DNA of 36,163 bases from Candidatus Nitrosocosmicus sp. (GTDB lineage: Archaea; Thermoproteota; Nitrososphaeria; Nitrososphaerales; Nitrososphaeraceae), in assembly GCA_025934495.1 (NCBI GenBank), contig JAICXY010000025.1, forward strand, positions 1 through 36,163. Reading direction: 5' to 3'. Below are positions 7,119-19,040 of the stretch, in pieces. Under the pieces are notes generated by a model that worked only from the letters and a program-made list of their open reading frames with translations, made no database searches and was not told the origin of the DNA. The position numbers were made by a program, and so were the translations under genes. Positions within the stretch are counted from its first letter, which is position 1; each line of letters opens with the position of its first letter.

Positions 7119-8423
7119 CTAAATAAAGTAATTATTGTGTTGTTTATTTGTTTTATTTATGCTCTCTATAATTTCTCTAGCTCTTGATACAGAAATATTT
7201 TCTTCATTAATCATTTGCTGGGCAATCCTTTCAATTTGATCATTTAAAGCTCCTGCTATTTTTGCAATATTTTTAGAGTGGAGTTTCATGTGTCCTTTTT
7301 GAATTCCTTCATCAGATAGAGCTCTAATTGCTGAAAAATTCTGTGCTAATCCTGCCGCAGCTATTATCATTGCTAGTTCTTGTGAACTTGTAATATCAAG
7401 TATTTTTAAACAGGTCTTTACAAGTGGATGTATATTTGTAATTCCTCCAATTATTCCAACTGCGAGAGGTATCTCTATTTCGCCTACCAGGTCCCCCTCT
7501 GAATTTTGATACCATTTAGTTAATGATCTATATTGACCATCTTTACAAGCATATGCATGACATCCTGCTTCGATCGCCCTAAAATCCTGTCCAGTAGCTA
7601 TTGCTACACTGTCGATTCCATTCATAATTCCTTTATTGTGGGTTACTGCTCTGTAAACATCAGAATAAGCAAACGCGTAGGAAAATAAAATTCTTTTCAG
7701 AACTTTATCTCCGCCAATTAATGCTTTCGGAAAAACTCCTTTGCATTTTACCAAACGTTTTGTTGCATAATTTGATAATATCTTTAGTATTACTTGACCT
7801 TCTGTTAACGATTCTATTTTTGGTGCAACAGCTTCACACATTGTGTTTATAACATTTGCTCCCATTGCGTCTTTTGTATCTACAAAAATTTCTATTATTA
7901 TCATCGACCCAAGGTTATTAATGCTTTCATCATAAAGTTGCCTTATATGTATGTCCACACATTGAGCAAATTTACTTTTGGTATTTGCAAGTTTTATTAA
8001 TTCTAATTTGTTTTTTATGATTTTTTTTATTGATTTATCTATGTTTATGTTATGATTATCATCTAAAGAAACTAATTGAATCTGTCCTATCATAATTGAT
8101 TTATCTGCTTTAGCTTTAAATCCGCCTGCTTCCTTAGCTATTTTTGCGGCATTGCTTGCTGCTGCTATTACAGAAGGCTCTTCAATTGCCATCGGTATTA
8201 AATATTCTTTATCGTTAATAACAAAATTGTTTGCTATTCCTAAAGGTATTTGAAAAACTCCAACTGCATTTTCTATCATCTTATTTATATCTTCGAATTT
8301 AAAAATTGAAGTATCATTAAATAATAGAATTTCCTTATCATCAATCTTTGTTTTCTTTTTAATATATTCTAGTCTTTCTTTCTGATTCATATTTCTAAAT
8401 TTTTTTTCTTTTAAATTAGTCAT
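7119..8423 (-). CDS. hmgA: Hydroxymethylglutaryl-CoA reductase, class II-like sequence
   Basis: Makes mevalonate from HMG-CoA for archaeal isoprenoid lipids. All catalytic residues of the family can be placed: Glu in IEEPSVIAAASNAAK, Lys in HNKGIMNGID, Asp in TGQDFRAIEAG, and the late His in GHMKLHSKNIA. The nucleotide-binding DAMGAN motif is present. The 434-residue protein lacks membrane segments, starts with a class II-type opening (RNMNQKERLEYI), and carries VGVFQIPLGIANNFVIN, all closer to the Pseudomonas mevalonii (class II) type than to the usual archaeal class I enzyme. The start codon overlaps the end of the sugar dehydrogenase gene by eight bases, and hisG follows 14 bases later. 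Function is certain; the class is inferred by eye. Confidence 0.92.
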   Translation of the reverse strand: MTNLKEKKFRNMNQKERLEYIKKKTKIDDKEILLFNDTSIFKFEDINKMIENAVGVFQIPLGIANNFVINDKEYLIPMAIEEPSVIAAASNAAKIAKEAGGFKAKADKSIMIGQIQLVSLDDNHNINIDKSIKKIIKNKLELIKLANTKSKFAQCVDIHIRQLYDESINNLGSMIIIEIFVDTKDAMGANVINTMCEAVAPKIESLTEGQVILKILSNYATKRLVKCKGVFPKALIGGDKVLKRILFSYAFAYSDVYRAVTHNKGIMNGIDSVAIATGQDFRAIEAGCHAYACKDGQYRSLTKWYQNSEGDLVGEIEIPLAVGIIGGITNIHPLVKTCLKILDITSSQELAMIIAAAGLAQNFSAIRALSDEGIQKGHMKLHSKNIAKIAGALNDQIERIAQQMINEENISVSRAREIIESINKTNKQHNNYFI

Positions 8424-9516
8424 TTTTAATTATTTTTAAAAGTTTATCCGATCCTGTGTTTTGATAAAAATCCTTATTTCCTGTTATTATATACAATGAT
8501 CCTCCCTTATCTTCTGTCACATCTTTTAATTTTCCAAATCCTGTTAATATTATTGATTGTTCTTTAGATTTAGGATCAATTATTCTTAAATGCTCGCCGT
8601 TTAACGTGGCAACTATTAATTTGCCCTCATAACCAAGCTTGGTAGAATTGCTGATTGTCATCCCTGACGGATAAATCGAAGGTGTAAAGCAAAATTCTGG
8701 CTGTGTAAATCGACTTTTTTCCAAATTCCCGCATTGTTCGACAGGCCAACCATAGTTCTGCCCTGGTTTAATTATGTTGATCTCATCATTTCCTGTTGCT
8801 CCAGCCTCACTTTCATATAATATTTTATTATTAAAATCCCATGCTAAACCAACTCCATTTCTATGTCCATATGAATAAATCGCTGAATTCTTAAAGGGAT
8901 TATCATGAGGAATTGTCCCATCATCATTAATTCTAAGAACTTTACCTCTTAAGCTTGAAAGGTTCTGGGCAGATTCTGAGATTGTATTATCTCCAACTGT
9001 TACATATAATTTTCCATCCGGACCAAATTTTAATACTCCGCCATTATGCAACTGGGAAGCTGGAATCCTGTCCATTACTGTTTTTTTATCAATTATTGTA
9101 TTGTTTTTTTCTTGTAGTCTTACTATTTTATTAAATATTTTATCATTGTTTTTGTATGTATAATAAATATAAAAATAACTATTCTTATCAAATTTTGGAG
9201 AAATAGTTAAACCTAAAAGACCTGCACCTTCATTAAAATAATTATCATTTAGTTTGTATTTGTTTAATACCGTTCCATTGTTATTAAGAAATGTTATATT
9301 TCCTTTTTGTTCTGCAACTAGTATTCTACCATCAGGCAAAACACCTATGCTTGTAGGAAAATCGAGTTTATCTGACAATGTCTTTAATGGCGATTCTTTT
9401 TTTTCAGTAAATGGGCTGGGTAATAATATTGTAGTATCAGAGGGAGTATTCTTTATTGTTATTATGCTTATCCCTATTATTATAATTCCTATAATTATTG
9501 CGGTGGCTTTTTTCAT
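8416..9516 (-). CDS. Membrane-anchored PQQ-type sugar dehydrogenase (GSDH family)
   Basis: A 366-residue six-bladed beta-propeller of the soluble glucose/aldose dehydrogenase family. An uncleaved-looking N-terminal hydrophobic segment (about residues 4-21, ATAIIIGIIIIGISIITI) would anchor the domain outside the cell. Family marks are FPTSIGVLPDGRILVAEQ, NEGAGLLGLTISPKF, the active-site His in QLHNGGVLKFGPDGKLYVTVGD, GHRNGVGLAWD and NYGWP. Homologues oxidise aldoses using PQQ; whether this organism makes PQQ cannot be judged here. It is the first gene of the five-gene minus-strand unit that continues with HMG-CoA reductase and hisGDC, and is divergent from the CBS-HPF gene. Confidence 0.85.
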   Translation of the reverse strand: MKKATAIIIGIIIIGISIITIKNTPSDTTILLPSPFTEKKESPLKTLSDKLDFPTSIGVLPDGRILVAEQKGNITFLNNNGTVLNKYKLNDNYFNEGAGLLGLTISPKFDKNSYFYIYYTYKNNDKIFNKIVRLQEKNNTIIDKKTVMDRIPASQLHNGGVLKFGPDGKLYVTVGDNTISESAQNLSSLRGKVLRINDDGTIPHDNPFKNSAIYSYGHRNGVGLAWDFNNKILYESEAGATGNDEINIIKPGQNYGWPVEQCGNLEKSRFTQPEFCFTPSIYPSGMTISNSTKLGYEGKLIVATLNGEHLRIIDPKSKEQSIILTGFGKLKDVTEDKGGSLYIITGNKDFYQNTGSDKLLKIIKND

Positions 9517-9570: not shown

Positions 9571-10674
9571 GTGATTAATAAAGTAAACTTGATACGAAAA
9601 GAAGTCCCCACTCTTTCATTAGAGGATTCCGTCTCAAAGGCTATTAATTTAATGTATATCCATTCCATCAAACAAATTCCAGTTGTTGATTTAAATGACA
9701 AATATTATGGAATGATATATTATAAGGATTTTATTAATACTCATTTTCAACCTTCATCAAAAATAAAACATTTTACATCCAATGGTGCTCATATTTTAAA
9801 ACCAAATGATGATTTGCAAATATGTATTAATTTTATGATAAATACTGGAAAAACTGGACTTCCTGTTGTAGAGAATGAAGAATTTATTGGTCTAGTTATT
9901 GATAAAGATCTTGTGTTGAATGTTGAACTCGAAAATTTAAAAGTCAATGATATAATGTCTAACCCTATAGTTATAGATGAAAATTCTAATTTAGATAATG
10001 CATTAAGTTTAATGAGGAAAAATAATATTTCTAGGTTACCTGTTGTAAATGATAAACATCTAGTTGTTGGCGTTATCTCTTTACTTGATATATTAAAAAT
10101 TACCTCAATTCCGAATGAAAAAGATTCGCACGCTCCTGCTCCTGGATCTAAAGAAAAATCTGGCTCTGTTCTCATAAAAGATATAATGAAAAATGCTTTC
10201 ACTATTGAAAGCGGTTCATTTGTTAAAAATATGGTTGATAGTTTTAAAAATAGTGATGAGTTAATAATTATATCTAATGATAAACCTGTAGGTATTATTA
10301 CCTCCAAAGATATATTGGAATCATCTATTTCAAAAAAAACTGATTCTATAGTTTATACAGCAAATTTTGATGACGAAAACATTCGTAACGAAATAGCTCA
10401 AAAAATGGAGAAATATATTAAAAAAATAGAAGGAAAACTGGACAATATACAATCTGTTGTAATATATTTTGAGAAACATAAAACACTTTGTTCAATTAGG
10501 ACCCGACTAATTACAAAAAACCAAGTAATTCATACACACTCTGATGATTATGATCCATTAAAAGCCTTTAAATCTGTTCTTGAAAAATTAGAGAGACAAA
10601 TCACAGAGTTACATTCAAAAAATGTAGAAAATAAATCTAAACAAAAATTATTTAGCGCAGATGAGGAGATTTGA
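9571..10674 (+). CDS. CBS-domain tetrad fused to an HPF/RaiA-like ribosome hibernation domain
   Basis: The 367 residues begin with four CBS motifs (about 5-55, 60-118, 124-180, 200-255), each showing the pattern of a helix followed by a short strand pair such as IKQIPVVD, KTGLPVV, ISRLPVVN and KPVGIITSKDIL. CBS pairs bind adenine nucleotides. The last 110 residues match the beta-alpha-beta3-alpha layout of ribosome hibernation factor HPF/RaiA: helix ENIRNEIAQKMEKYIKKIEG, strand SVVIYFEKHK, strand CSIRTRLIT, strand QVIHTHSDD, then helix DPLKAFKSVLEKLERQI. The inferred role is energy-sensed ribosome silencing. The start is GTG at 9571, 54 bp from the divergent sugar dehydrogenase. The final 19 bases overlap the antisense tRNA-Ser gene. 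Confidence 0.75.
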   Translation: MINKVNLIRKEVPTLSLEDSVSKAINLMYIHSIKQIPVVDLNDKYYGMIYYKDFINTHFQPSSKIKHFTSNGAHILKPNDDLQICINFMINTGKTGLPVVENEEFIGLVIDKDLVLNVELENLKVNDIMSNPIVIDENSNLDNALSLMRKNNISRLPVVNDKHLVVGVISLLDILKITSIPNEKDSHAPAPGSKEKSGSVLIKDIMKNAFTIESGSFVKNMVDSFKNSDELIIISNDKPVGIITSKDILESSISKKTDSIVYTANFDDENIRNEIAQKMEKYIKKIEGKLDNIQSVVIYFEKHKTLCSIRTRLITKNQVIHTHSDDYDPLKAFKSVLEKLERQITELHSKNVENKSKQKLFSADEEI

Positions 10675-10703
10675 ACTCCTGCTCGCCATACGGCGAATCG
10701 GCT

Positions 10704-10728
10704 TACTTTTAATCCACCTTGGCGTTAC
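10704..10728 (-). other. Canonical-position (37/38) tRNA intron, 25 nt
   Basis: The anticodon-loop segment between stems TCGGC and GCCGA is 32 nt instead of 7. Removing 25 nt leaves CTTGAGA, a normal loop with anticodon TGA. A relaxed bulge-helix-bulge can be drawn: CTT pairs with AAG, a TAA bulge holds the 3' cut, a GAGG bulge holds the 5' cut, and TAA/TTA continues the inner helix. Exact ends could shift by one base. Confidence 0.65.
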
Positions 10729-10745
10729 CTCAAGGCCGACGCAAT

Positions 10746-10775
10746 ATTGTAGTCCTAGTATTTTTAACTTAGGAT
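10746..10775 (-). other. Probable non-canonical D-loop intron of tRNA-Ser, about 30 nt
   Basis: The D-loop between GCA and TGC is 40 nt where tRNA-Ser has about 11. The insert forms a hairpin with a 5-bp stem TCCTA/TAGGA. Taking out about 29-30 nt restores a normal D-loop beginning GAGTGGTC. Splice sites cannot be fixed from one sequence; the flanking bulges are only approximate. Confidence 0.55.
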
Positions 10776-10984
10776 GACCACTCTGCCACATCTGCACTAA
10801 AATTACTTATTATTTTCCCCTCTATTATATTTTGATACTCGTTTAATTGAAATTTGCCTATTATACTAGCAAGTCTGTATTATCATTAAATTTGCAAATG
10901 ATAATTTGTTTTTGAAAATAATGAAAATGAACATCAAACTAAAATATTTGTTGGCTTTAGATCAAAAATTTCTATATGATTGTC

Positions 10985-11765
10985 TTAAAATTTTTCTATT
11001 TCTATCCTTAATATGTCAAATTGTCTTTTATATGATAATTCTTCTTTTGCATGAGGACAAATTAAATATGATGTTTTAGTTTCAAGGATAATATAACATT
11101 ACTAGTATGTATATGTATAATATGTACTATATCTCCACCACAAATAGTAACTGGTGGTTTCTCATTTTCTTTTGATGTATTGGATAGAAATCTTTCTCTT
11201 AACGTCACAAAAATATAGTATATTTCTTTTTTTGATCTGCTTATTCCACCCTACATATTTCCTTATTTTCGAACTGGATGTCTGTTATCCAGTCGGGCCA
11301 TTTTAATTCACAACCGAATTTGAGTTGATTTTCATTTCTGAATAAAAAATTCAGATTATTATCTTTTATGTGAAACAACTTTCTGGCTGTGTTCTCCTTG
11401 TATCTTATCATTTATCACTTTGTTGCTCGAGTTCTTTTAATACTCCTGGTATTGATTTTATATATTAGATCTCTTGCAAAATAGGACCATTAGAAAAATT
11501 TCTAATAATAGAATACATTTTGATCGTAATCAGTAAATTAAAATGTAAATTACATAATTTCATCGATAGCCTCAAATTTTGATAGGCGTCTAATTTTGCG
11601 AGATCTATTGTATTTCTTGATAAAAACCAGTGAAATGGATATAAAGTATACTATGTTCTCAGATTCTGCCCTCTTTTTATCTAAATATTTTATTATAATT
11701 GAAAACGGAATATTTGCTTTTTCCTTAAATTCAAATACTGTATAACTTAAACTTCTAATTTTCTG
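10985..11765 (-). pseudogene. Decayed minus-strand coding region, several frame breaks
   Basis: This gene-free stretch contains protein-like minus-strand reading in shifting frames. Pieces are: a 71-codon open frame from the transposon edge at 11765 to a stop at 11550-11552 (contains FKEKANIPFSIIIKYLDKK); a 56-residue ORF from ATG 11411 to stop 11241 (contains LKWPDWITDIQFENKE); a 63-codon frame 11250 to 11062 (contains ENEKPPVTICGGDIV); and a last piece ending at 10985 (contains TSYLICPHAKEELSYKRQFD). Open runs this long are unlikely in DNA this AT-rich, and compositions look like soluble proteins. I recognise no family. One or two genes ruined by frameshifts is the best reading; a cluster of real small ORFs is possible. 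Confidence 0.5.
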
Positions 11766-12298
11766 GCTCTGTTAACAGTATATAAAGAATGCTATATGTT
11801 CTTCTGTAAACTAATAATACTGCTTGTTTTCATCTGCAAATTATTGTTGTATTTTTTAATATTCTCTAGTTTTAATAATTACCAAATCTAAACAAGCACA
11901 TTCTGCCTACATTAAAGATTATATGTATTTATATGACTATTAACAATTCTGTAAATTGTATTCTATGTTTTCCTGTAAGATAATGTGGTGTTTGTTTAGA
12001 TATCCTAATATCTTTAAATTGCCACTCTTAACTATGACGATCAATCAGCAAGTGGACGAATATATCTAATAAAAATCATGTCAGAGAAACAATCACAATA
12101 TTTTACAATAGAATATACCTTTGTGTTTACACAGCTGTTAACTTGATGATTTTATCAATCTTTTTAATTTATCAACTAGTTTTTTCTCTACAATTATTTT
12201 TCAATGATGTCTGTTAATTTGGATAAAATCAGGTAAACAATTTATTTTGCCATTATAATCAACATTTAAAATAAAATATTTTTCAAGTCAACAGAGCC
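11765..12298. mobile_element. 534-bp transposon-like element with GGCTCTGTT terminal repeats
   Basis: The left end GGCTCTGTTAAC (11765-11776) is mirrored by GTCAACAGAGCC at 12287-12298. The flanks AATTTTCT (11757-11764) and AATTTCCT (12299-12306) match at 7 of 8 positions, as expected for an old 8-bp target duplication. No intact transposase ORF lies inside, although minus-strand fragments such as LKILGYLNKHHIILQENIEY look coding. A second inward-facing end (CTGTTAACTTGATG from 12135) suggests a composite or nested structure. The right end lies only about 50 bp from the DegT gene start. Confidence 0.65.
12135..12205 (+). repeat. 71-bp repeat, inverted copy at 22166-22238
   Basis: This segment, starting CTGTTAACTTGATGATTTTA, recurs in reverse orientation at 22166-22238 with one substitution and a two-base difference in a poly-T run. 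It begins with the same CTGTTAAC core as the element ends, so it is probably a sub-terminal part of the same mobile element family. Confidence 0.8.
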
Positions 12299-12317
12299 AA
12301 TTTCCTGTATTTACTAA

Positions 12318-12325
12318 TTTTTATA
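12318..12325 (+). promoter_or_regulatory. TATA box of the DegT-type aminotransferase gene
   Basis: TTTTTATA is centred about 29 bases upstream of the ATG at 12351. That spacing fits a leaderless archaeal transcript beginning at or next to the ATG, and supports this ATG over the GTG at 12327, which lies within the expected promoter-to-start interval. Confidence 0.45.
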
Positions 12326-16922: not shown

Positions 16923-19040
16923 TTGAGTACTACGAATTTAAAAAATATTTTTCTTTCACCCACATCTATTGCAATAGTAGGAGCTTCTGAAAAGCCTGGG
17001 GTAGGAAAAGCCATTTTTTTAAATATATTAAATGGTTACAAAGGAAAAATTTATCCTATTTCACCTACTAGTTCTTCTATATTTGGGATAAAAGCGTACA
17101 AAAGTGTTTTAGATGTAGATCACGATATAGATCTTGCAGTTGTGGCAACTCCAAGTAAAATTGTACCATCTGTTATGGAAGAAATAGGTAAAAAGAAAAT
17201 CAAAGCCTCGATAATTGTTTCAGCTGGTTTTAAAGAAGTGGATGAATCGGGTGCTAAACTTGAGCAAATAATTGGTGATATAGGGAGACAATACGGAATC
17301 CGAATAATTGGACCGAATTGCCTTGGAATAATGAGTTTGACCGAACAAAACCTTGTGAACCTCACATTTTTAAAAATTACTCCTAAATATGGTGAGATTG
17401 CATTAGTTTCTCAAAGTGGTGCTATTTGTGCAGCTACTGTGGAAGACGCAATGGCCCAAGGAATAGGTTTTTCGAAAGTAATTAGTATGGGGAATAAAGT
17501 CGATATGGATGAAAATGATATTCTTGAACTGCTCGAAGATGATCCTTTTACAAAAGTAATTGTGATGTATTTGGAGGATATTCATGATGGCCGTAGATTT
17601 ATGAATATTGCAAAAAGAATTACTCTTGAAAAAAGAAAACCAATAGTTGTTCTAAAAGCTGGTAGAACTCCTGAAGGGGCCAAAGCGGCTATGTCTCATA
17701 CAGGTGCGTTGATGGGATCAGATGAAATATATGAATCTGTTTTCAAACAATCTGGAGTAATTCGAGTTGATACTATGCAAGAATTATTTGAATTAGCTAC
17801 TGCTTTTTCAAAACAACCTTTACCTGTAGAGAATAAAGGTGTTGCTATTGTTTCTAATGCGGGAGGACCTGCAATTATATCGACTGACGCCTGTTCGAAA
17901 TATCAGATACAAATGGCGGACATTTCTGATTCTAAAGATTTTATCTCAACAGTTATTCCTCCGCATGGCTCTTCAAAAAATCCTGTTGATATTGTAGGGG
18001 ATGCTGATTTTAACCGATTTGAAAAGGTTCTCCAAGAAATACTATCAAATCCTAATGTTGGCTCTGTAGTTACAATGTGTACTCCATCTGCAACTTTGGA
18101 TTATAACGAATTAGCAAAAACAATAATCCGAACATCTAAAAATACTGGTAAAACTATGTTGGCAGCTTTGATGGGTTTAGCTGAAGGATTAGAAAATAAA
18201 CAAATATTGTCAGAAGGTGGTGTACCACATTTTATGTATGCAGAACCTGCTATACGAACACTCGAATCTATGTATAGATTTAGTAAATGGTTAAATTATA
18301 AAAACGAGCCTATCACATCCTATTCTGTTGACAAATATAAAGTCAAAGATATTTTGTCTGATGTAAAAAAACAAGGACGTTCCAATCTTTTAGAAGATGA
18401 GGGCTATGAAGTACTTGAAGCATATGGCTTTCCTGTTCCTAAAAGTGTGCTTGTAAATAATGAAAATGATGCAATTAATGCCTCAAATAAAATTGGTTAT
18501 CCTGTAGTAATGAAAATATCTTCTAAAGATGTTATACATAAATCAGATTCTGGAGGTGTAAAAGTTGGAGTAAAAGATGCTGCTGAAGTAAAAGATGCTT
18601 TTAACCTTATATTATCTAATGTAAAAGCACGTCATCCTGATGCGGATATTAAGGGTATTCTTGTCCAAGAAATGATAACTCAATCAAGAGAAACAATTCT
18701 AGGTGCTAAACAAGATAAATTATTTGGACCATTATTGTTGTTTGGTTTAGGTGGTATTTATGTAGAGATTCTAAAAGATGTAATTTTTAGATTGGCCCCT
18801 ATTTCTGAATCAGAAGCAAGAAATATGGTTGAATCTATAAAAACCATTGGTTTATTAAAAGGCGCTAGAGGTGAAAAATATTCTGATATATCATCCGTAG
18901 TTGATTGTTTATTAAGATTGTCACAGCTGGTAGTTGATTTTCCTGAAATTGAAGAATTTGATATAAATCCGCTACTGGTTCTGGAAGAAGGAAAAGGTTC
19001 GAGAGTGGTAGATGTAAGGATTAAAATTAAAGATAATTAA
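16923..19040 (+). CDS. ADP-forming acyl-CoA synthetase, fused alpha and beta subunits
   Basis: Converts an organic acid, CoA and ATP to acyl-CoA, ADP and phosphate. Residues 1-460 are the alpha part: CoA-binding Rossmann domain (SIAIVGASEKPGVGKAIF), then the ligase domain with the phospho-accepting His in AAMSHTGALMGSD. Residues 480-705 are the beta ATP-grasp part with the second His in VIHKSDSGGVKVGV and the tail EFDINPLLVL. Thaumarchaea use such enzymes to activate 3-hydroxypropionate and 4-hydroxybutyrate in carbon fixation; acetate activation is the alternative. Sequence alone does not decide among them. The start is TTG at 16923, in the normal position for the family, with an AT-rich promoter region before it. 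Confidence 0.9.
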   Translation: MSTTNLKNIFLSPTSIAIVGASEKPGVGKAIFLNILNGYKGKIYPISPTSSSIFGIKAYKSVLDVDHDIDLAVVATPSKIVPSVMEEIGKKKIKASIIVSAGFKEVDESGAKLEQIIGDIGRQYGIRIIGPNCLGIMSLTEQNLVNLTFLKITPKYGEIALVSQSGAICAATVEDAMAQGIGFSKVISMGNKVDMDENDILELLEDDPFTKVIVMYLEDIHDGRRFMNIAKRITLEKRKPIVVLKAGRTPEGAKAAMSHTGALMGSDEIYESVFKQSGVIRVDTMQELFELATAFSKQPLPVENKGVAIVSNAGGPAIISTDACSKYQIQMADISDSKDFISTVIPPHGSSKNPVDIVGDADFNRFEKVLQEILSNPNVGSVVTMCTPSATLDYNELAKTIIRTSKNTGKTMLAALMGLAEGLENKQILSEGGVPHFMYAEPAIRTLESMYRFSKWLNYKNEPITSYSVDKYKVKDILSDVKKQGRSNLLEDEGYEVLEAYGFPVPKSVLVNNENDAINASNKIGYPVVMKISSKDVIHKSDSGGVKVGVKDAAEVKDAFNLILSNVKARHPDADIKGILVQEMITQSRETILGAKQDKLFGPLLLFGLGGIYVEILKDVIFRLAPISESEARNMVESIKTIGLLKGARGEKYSDISSVVDCLLRLSQLVVDFPEIEEFDINPLLVLEEGKGSRVVDVRIKIKDN

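Follow-up and report, generated by a model that had tools for sequence, protein, structure and literature searches.

A HibA-family gene in a Nitrososphaeraceae genome and a candidate second CBS–HPF line in ammonia-oxidising archaea

The window analysed here is a 36,163-nucleotide stretch of DNA from Candidatus Nitrosocosmicus sp. (contig JAICXY010000025.1), and the gene of interest in it, hibA, encodes a protein of four CBS domains followed by an HPF/RaiA domain (Table 1). The start codons of orthologues with 77–80% identity lie at the place matching its GTG start, and these orthologues, together with low dN/dS values (0.11–0.19 for the whole gene and 0.06–0.10, around 0.07, for the HPF part, the most constrained region), establish hibA as a real gene under purifying selection. 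A tRNA gene is convergent with hibA and overlaps its 3′ end by approximately 20 nt; the final six residues of the protein (SADEEI) and the stop codon are the complement of this tRNA gene. ARAGORN found the tRNA gene when introns were allowed but not in its bacterial (default) mode, and an Rfam search of the window at gathering scores gave no match. ARAGORN called a Phe anticodon, which cannot be trusted given the long variable arm of this tRNA; a Leu or Ser identity is likelier. Beyond the tRNA gene, about 1.5 kb (positions 10800–12320) contains no open reading frame of at least 100 aa and separates the tRNA gene from a DegT/DnrJ-type aminotransferase gene. Elsewhere in the window, positions 16923–19037 (+) encode an ADP-forming acyl-CoA synthetase close to the 4-hydroxybutyryl-CoA synthetase of Nitrosopumilus maritimus (8wzu); its presence is expected, given the carbon-fixation pathway that ammonia-oxidising archaea use.

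Table 1 Features of the hibA locus, in window coordinates.
Feature	Position	Strand	Details
Glucose/sorbosone dehydrogenase-like gene	8416..9516	-	Divergently transcribed neighbour; flags the empty site where hibA is missing
hibA (HibA-1) coding sequence	9571..10674	+	367 aa; GTG start; TGA stop included
CBS1	9586..9744	+	Residues 6–58; ribose motif degenerate (GMIYYKD); boundaries approximate
CBS2	9784..9924	+	Residues 72–118; motif GLVIDKD, Ser lost; boundaries approximate
CBS3	9940..10101	+	Residues 124–177; motif GVISLLD intact; boundaries approximate
CBS3–CBS4 loop, place of the Pyrococcus PTC loop	10102..10170	+	
CBS4	10171..10326	+	Residues 201–252; motif GIITSKD intact
HPF/RaiA (S30AE) domain	10342..10620	+	Residues 258–350; Pfam, model and Foldseek
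tRNA gene	10655..10795	-	Long variable arm; anticodon-loop intron (~50 nt); ARAGORN with introns allowed; conserved position

Pfam detected four CBS stretches (PF00571; 124.2 bits, E 2.6e-36) and a Ribosomal_S30AE domain (PF02482) at residues 274–350 (31.2 bits; cut-off 23.7), the single S30AE match in the window genome, which is 95.7% complete; no specific NCBIfam family scored above its cut-off. An AlphaFold2 model of residues 258–358 (pLDDT 84.6) has the order strand-helix-strand-strand-strand-helix, and in a Foldseek comparison with the PDB its first 38 matches were all HPF, RaiA, YfiA or pY proteins, the best being 4hei_A (E 4e-7, TM 0.75/0.82). These results bear out the preliminary description, made from the sequence alone, of four CBS domains joined to an HPF-like domain. 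That description had assigned the HPF fold to the C-terminal 110 residues; the fold stands, and the length shrinks to about 93 residues, with the last ~17 residues of the protein forming a variable tail beyond the domain. A full-length AlphaFold2 model from a two-sequence alignment was poor (pLDDT 51) and was used for local elements only, and the CBS module is presumed to pack as in its homologues. The C-terminal domain is alike in fold to bacterial HPF/RaiA/pY, but bacterial HPF and RaiA have no CBS module; compared with bacterial long HPF, the window protein lacks the C-terminal dimerisation domain and carries its HPF domain at the C terminus, after the CBS domains.

A fusion of this kind is already known. 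The HibA family, published in April 2026, joins four CBS domains to HPF/RaiA and is present in 47% of archaeal genomes; HibA was seen by cryo-EM on 70S ribosomes from stressed Pyrococcus abyssi and inhibits translation in vitro, and its deletion in Thermococcus barophilus delayed recovery and lowered 70S levels (PMC13324472). The earlier hunch that the CBS-containing ribosome factors reported in archaea might include the family of the window protein was therefore right, that family being HibA (PMC13324472). In phmmer, residues 21–346 of the window protein aligned to P. abyssi HibA (chain 9sr9_H) with E 2.6e-20, and the profile of its family, here called HibA-1, matched the same chain over positions 1–345 with E 3.2e-36. 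Identity to P. abyssi HibA is only ~24%, but the architecture is that of the Thermococcales proteins (PDB 9SR9 and others), the alignment spans the full length and the T-x-x-D motif of CBS4 is common to both. The best PDB match by E-value, for the window protein and for the HibA-1 profile alike, was 9l96_a (406 aa; PDB 9l96, 9l98, 9l9c and 9l9v), which shares the CBS–HPF architecture at ~25% identity and has a longer CBS3–CBS4 loop; a literature search for an accompanying paper found none. Two other proteins with CBS modules solved on archaeal ribosomes, Dri (9e6q) and Methanosarcina acetivorans Sri (9znf, 9zng and 9zni), lack an HPF domain, and Dri consists of two CBS modules (PMC13324472), that is, eight CBS domains, whereas the window protein has one four-CBS module plus HPF. 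The window protein is a securely placed, if ordinary, member of HibA.

Within Nitrososphaeraceae, HibA-1 orthology is also positional. In every full-length HibA-1 locus sampled from this family, the gene converges on a tRNA gene of one kind, with an intron, and in many of these loci the dehydrogenase gene lies on the other side. Among 15 genomes of the window genus, hibA is intact in three (G000, G013 and G015), broken in one (G014) and missing from 11; in ten of these 11 both neighbours lie on one contig, 193–275 bp apart, and no coding remnant of HibA was found at the ten empty sites. In G014 the gene is spread over several frames across two contig ends (L003, L082 and L095) while HibA-2, a second family described below, is intact, and the broken copy is probably a gene caught in decay. 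Horizontal gain of hibA in the window genus was considered and rejected: the position beside the tRNA gene, often with the dehydrogenase gene, is common to other genera, and the empty sites keep both neighbours. The pattern is therefore one of loss, not of recent gain.

Low-scoring matches in genomes lacking HibA-1 led to a second family, for which we coined the label HibA-2, leaving HibA-1 for the window type. Its members, from G007, G008, G051, G055, G057 and other genomes (L109–L146) and from Nitrosopumilaceae loci (L147–L157), are proteins of 373–427 aa with four CBS domains and a C-terminal domain of ~96 residues. The family occurs in Nitrososphaeraceae, in Nitrosopumilaceae and in families related to them. 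In profile comparison, this C-terminal domain matched the HPF domain of HibA-1 with 95% probability (E 2.7e-8), and the full-length profiles of the two families matched over 352 columns (E 1.8e-32); searched against the PDB, the full-length HibA-2 profile had P. abyssi HibA as its top match (E 4e-36). Three of the four best PDB matches of the C-terminal profile were bacterial ribosome hibernation promoting factors, at weak E-values of 0.026–0.08, and nine of 26 HibA-2 members reached PF02482 at E≤1 (best 1.7e-6). Compared with HibA-1, column-shuffled or reversed profiles reached no more than 21 where the real profile scored 45.9; compared with canonical HibA, they reached no more than 16.5 where it scored 33.7. 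Chance similarity was therefore rejected. The C-terminal domain of HibA-2 thus appears to be HPF-like, yet so divergent that HPF and HibA profiles largely miss it. In the tree, HibA-1, HibA-2 and canonical HibA each form one clade (100/100, 100/98 and 97/94), and HibA-1 plus canonical HibA split from HibA-2 at 100/98 (midpoint-rooted, without the standalone CBS-module families CM-1 to CM-6). HibA-2 has the same layout as HibA-1 but is a separate clade, and the window genus is a long branch (0.78) inside an otherwise tight Nitrososphaeraceae HibA-1 clade. Shorter HibA-2 forms of 271–293 aa (L164 in G154; G281; G324), all from the genus to which N. maritimus belongs, stop where the CBS module ends and have no HPF domain.

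The two families are distributed almost exclusively of each other. Among 70 Nitrososphaeraceae genomes, 32 carry HibA-1 only, 26 HibA-2 only, two both and ten neither (Fisher p 5.6e-9, a value that overstates the evidence, since the pattern is clustered by genus, with g1, g9 and g12 mixed, and reflects few independent switches). Genomes without HibA-1 usually carry HibA-2, and co-occurrence is rare; at E≤1e-20, no HibA-2 was found in the window genome. This near-exclusive distribution points to one job shared by HibA-1 and HibA-2. At E≤1e-40, HibA-2 was also found in 86 of 250 Nitrosopumilaceae genomes, spanning 14 of 22 genera (56 of the 131 high-quality genomes), with most matches full length and a few CBS-only or partial; at the same threshold there was none in N. 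maritimus (G113). That our family f2 is Nitrosopumilaceae follows from G113, in which Nmar_0206 of N. maritimus, the enzyme in PDB 8wzu, is encoded at 305 of 305 residues (PMC11494057). Nitrosopumilaceae have been listed as one of the few lineages in which no hibernation factor could be identified, and the question was raised whether such lineages do without one or rely on a factor not yet recognised (PMC13324472); our literature search on hibernation in Nitrosopumilus or Nitrosocosmicus found no published work. We lean towards the view that HibA-2 is an unrecognised second CBS–HPF hibernation line in ammonia-oxidising archaea, one that would have replaced HibA-1 within Nitrososphaeraceae and may be the missing factor of many Nitrosopumilaceae.

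For the window gene itself, the HPF fold, the four CBS domains and the full-length similarity to P. abyssi HibA uphold the original proposal of a candidate hibernation factor, and we put at roughly 0.86 the probability that its product is the Nitrososphaeraceae orthologue of HibA, acting as an archaeal ribosome hibernation factor. Orthology rests on position within Nitrososphaeraceae and on the full-length similarity; ribosome binding and its effect in this organism we infer from homologues. By homology, the HPF/RaiA domain would sit in the 30S mRNA/decoding channel, and the CBS module with its four domains would occupy the empty tRNA space of the 50S subunit, on the PTC, uL5 or L1-stalk side. 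Idle 70S ribosomes would in this way be kept joined, inactive and shielded until the cells grow again.

A stronger version of the proposal, in which ribosome binding is turned on or off directly by AMP or ATP occupying the CBS module, we consider unlikely. The preliminary description had taken the N-terminal CBS motifs as nucleotide-sensing, which fits CBS3 and CBS4, where the S/T-x-x-D ribose motif is intact, but not CBS1 and CBS2, where it is degenerate (the CBS2 motif reads GIVSETD in other genera). In the P. abyssi HibA structure, ATP lies at the CBS3/CBS4 interface (PMC13324472). One adenylate site at CBS3/CBS4 is therefore plausible for the window protein, whereas a four-site sensor is not, as judged from these motifs. 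In favour of energy gating, the motifs of CBS3 and CBS4 are intact, T244 and D247 of CBS4 do not vary among HibA-1, P. abyssi HibA and 9l96, and the CBS module of P. abyssi HibA binds AMP (12 µM; 65 µM for ADP and 113 µM for ATP; PMC13324472). However, 5 mM AMP or ATP did not clearly change the binding or the conformations of P. abyssi HibA, and native HibA–ribosome complexes carried no nucleotide (PMC13324472). Because these published nucleotide data reveal no clear effect on ribosome binding, the direct gating originally suggested found no support; a nucleotide-driven on/off switch of HibA is possible but unsupported, and regulation through the amount of protein expressed, or through a partner, is no less likely.

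Several features of the window protein depart from the Pyrococcus model and count against a HibA-like role. The HPF domain of P. abyssi HibA carries two insertions, described as archaeal-specific, that touch uS19 and uS12 (PMC13324472). At these sites the window protein has gaps of three and six residues, and its lineage, like bacterial HPF/RaiA/pY, lacks both insertions, an absence newly noted here; deletion of the insertions in P. abyssi HibA left translation inhibition unchanged, and they lie outside the authors' definition of the family (PMC13324472). The CBS3–CBS4 loop matches the P. abyssi PTC loop in length (24 aligned residues), its sequence is dissimilar, and the closest relatives have a loop ten residues shorter (14 aligned residues). 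The long branch, the absence of hibA from 11 of the 15 genomes of the genus and its breakage in one more point the same way. Together with the shorter loop of close relatives and with pull-downs that tie Thermococcales HibA to DNA replication and recombination proteins (PMC13324472), the branch and the losses could mean that in this fast-evolving genus the protein has drifted to another role, as a nucleotide-sensing regulator or with another partner, its ancestral function having passed largely to HibA-2. We find this distinctly improbable, given that the HPF part is the most constrained by dN/dS (0.06–0.10) and keeps its fold, and that the window genome yields no HibA-2 match at E≤1e-20. The CBS part also resembles MJ1225, SSO3205 and AMPK gamma, but it is scarcely credible that the protein is a lone four-CBS adenylate sensor like AMPK gamma or MJ1225 whose tail is unrelated: Pfam and the fold both identify that tail as an HPF domain, and HibA matches over the full length.

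The HibA orthologue described here extends a newly described family to soil ammonia oxidisers, and HibA-1, having no archaeal-specific HPF insertions, offers a natural experiment on whether the contacts they make are important. What is new is the tRNA-side position with its empty sites, HibA-2 and its presence in Nitrosopumilaceae, and the missing HPF insertions; of these, the replacement pattern and HibA-2 matter more than the window protein's own membership in HibA. The occurrence of HibA-2 in 14 of 22 Nitrosopumilaceae genera, but not in N. maritimus, suggests that hibernation capacity differs between genera of this family, and its presence in 86 of 250 genomes makes the question of their hibernation factor directly testable.
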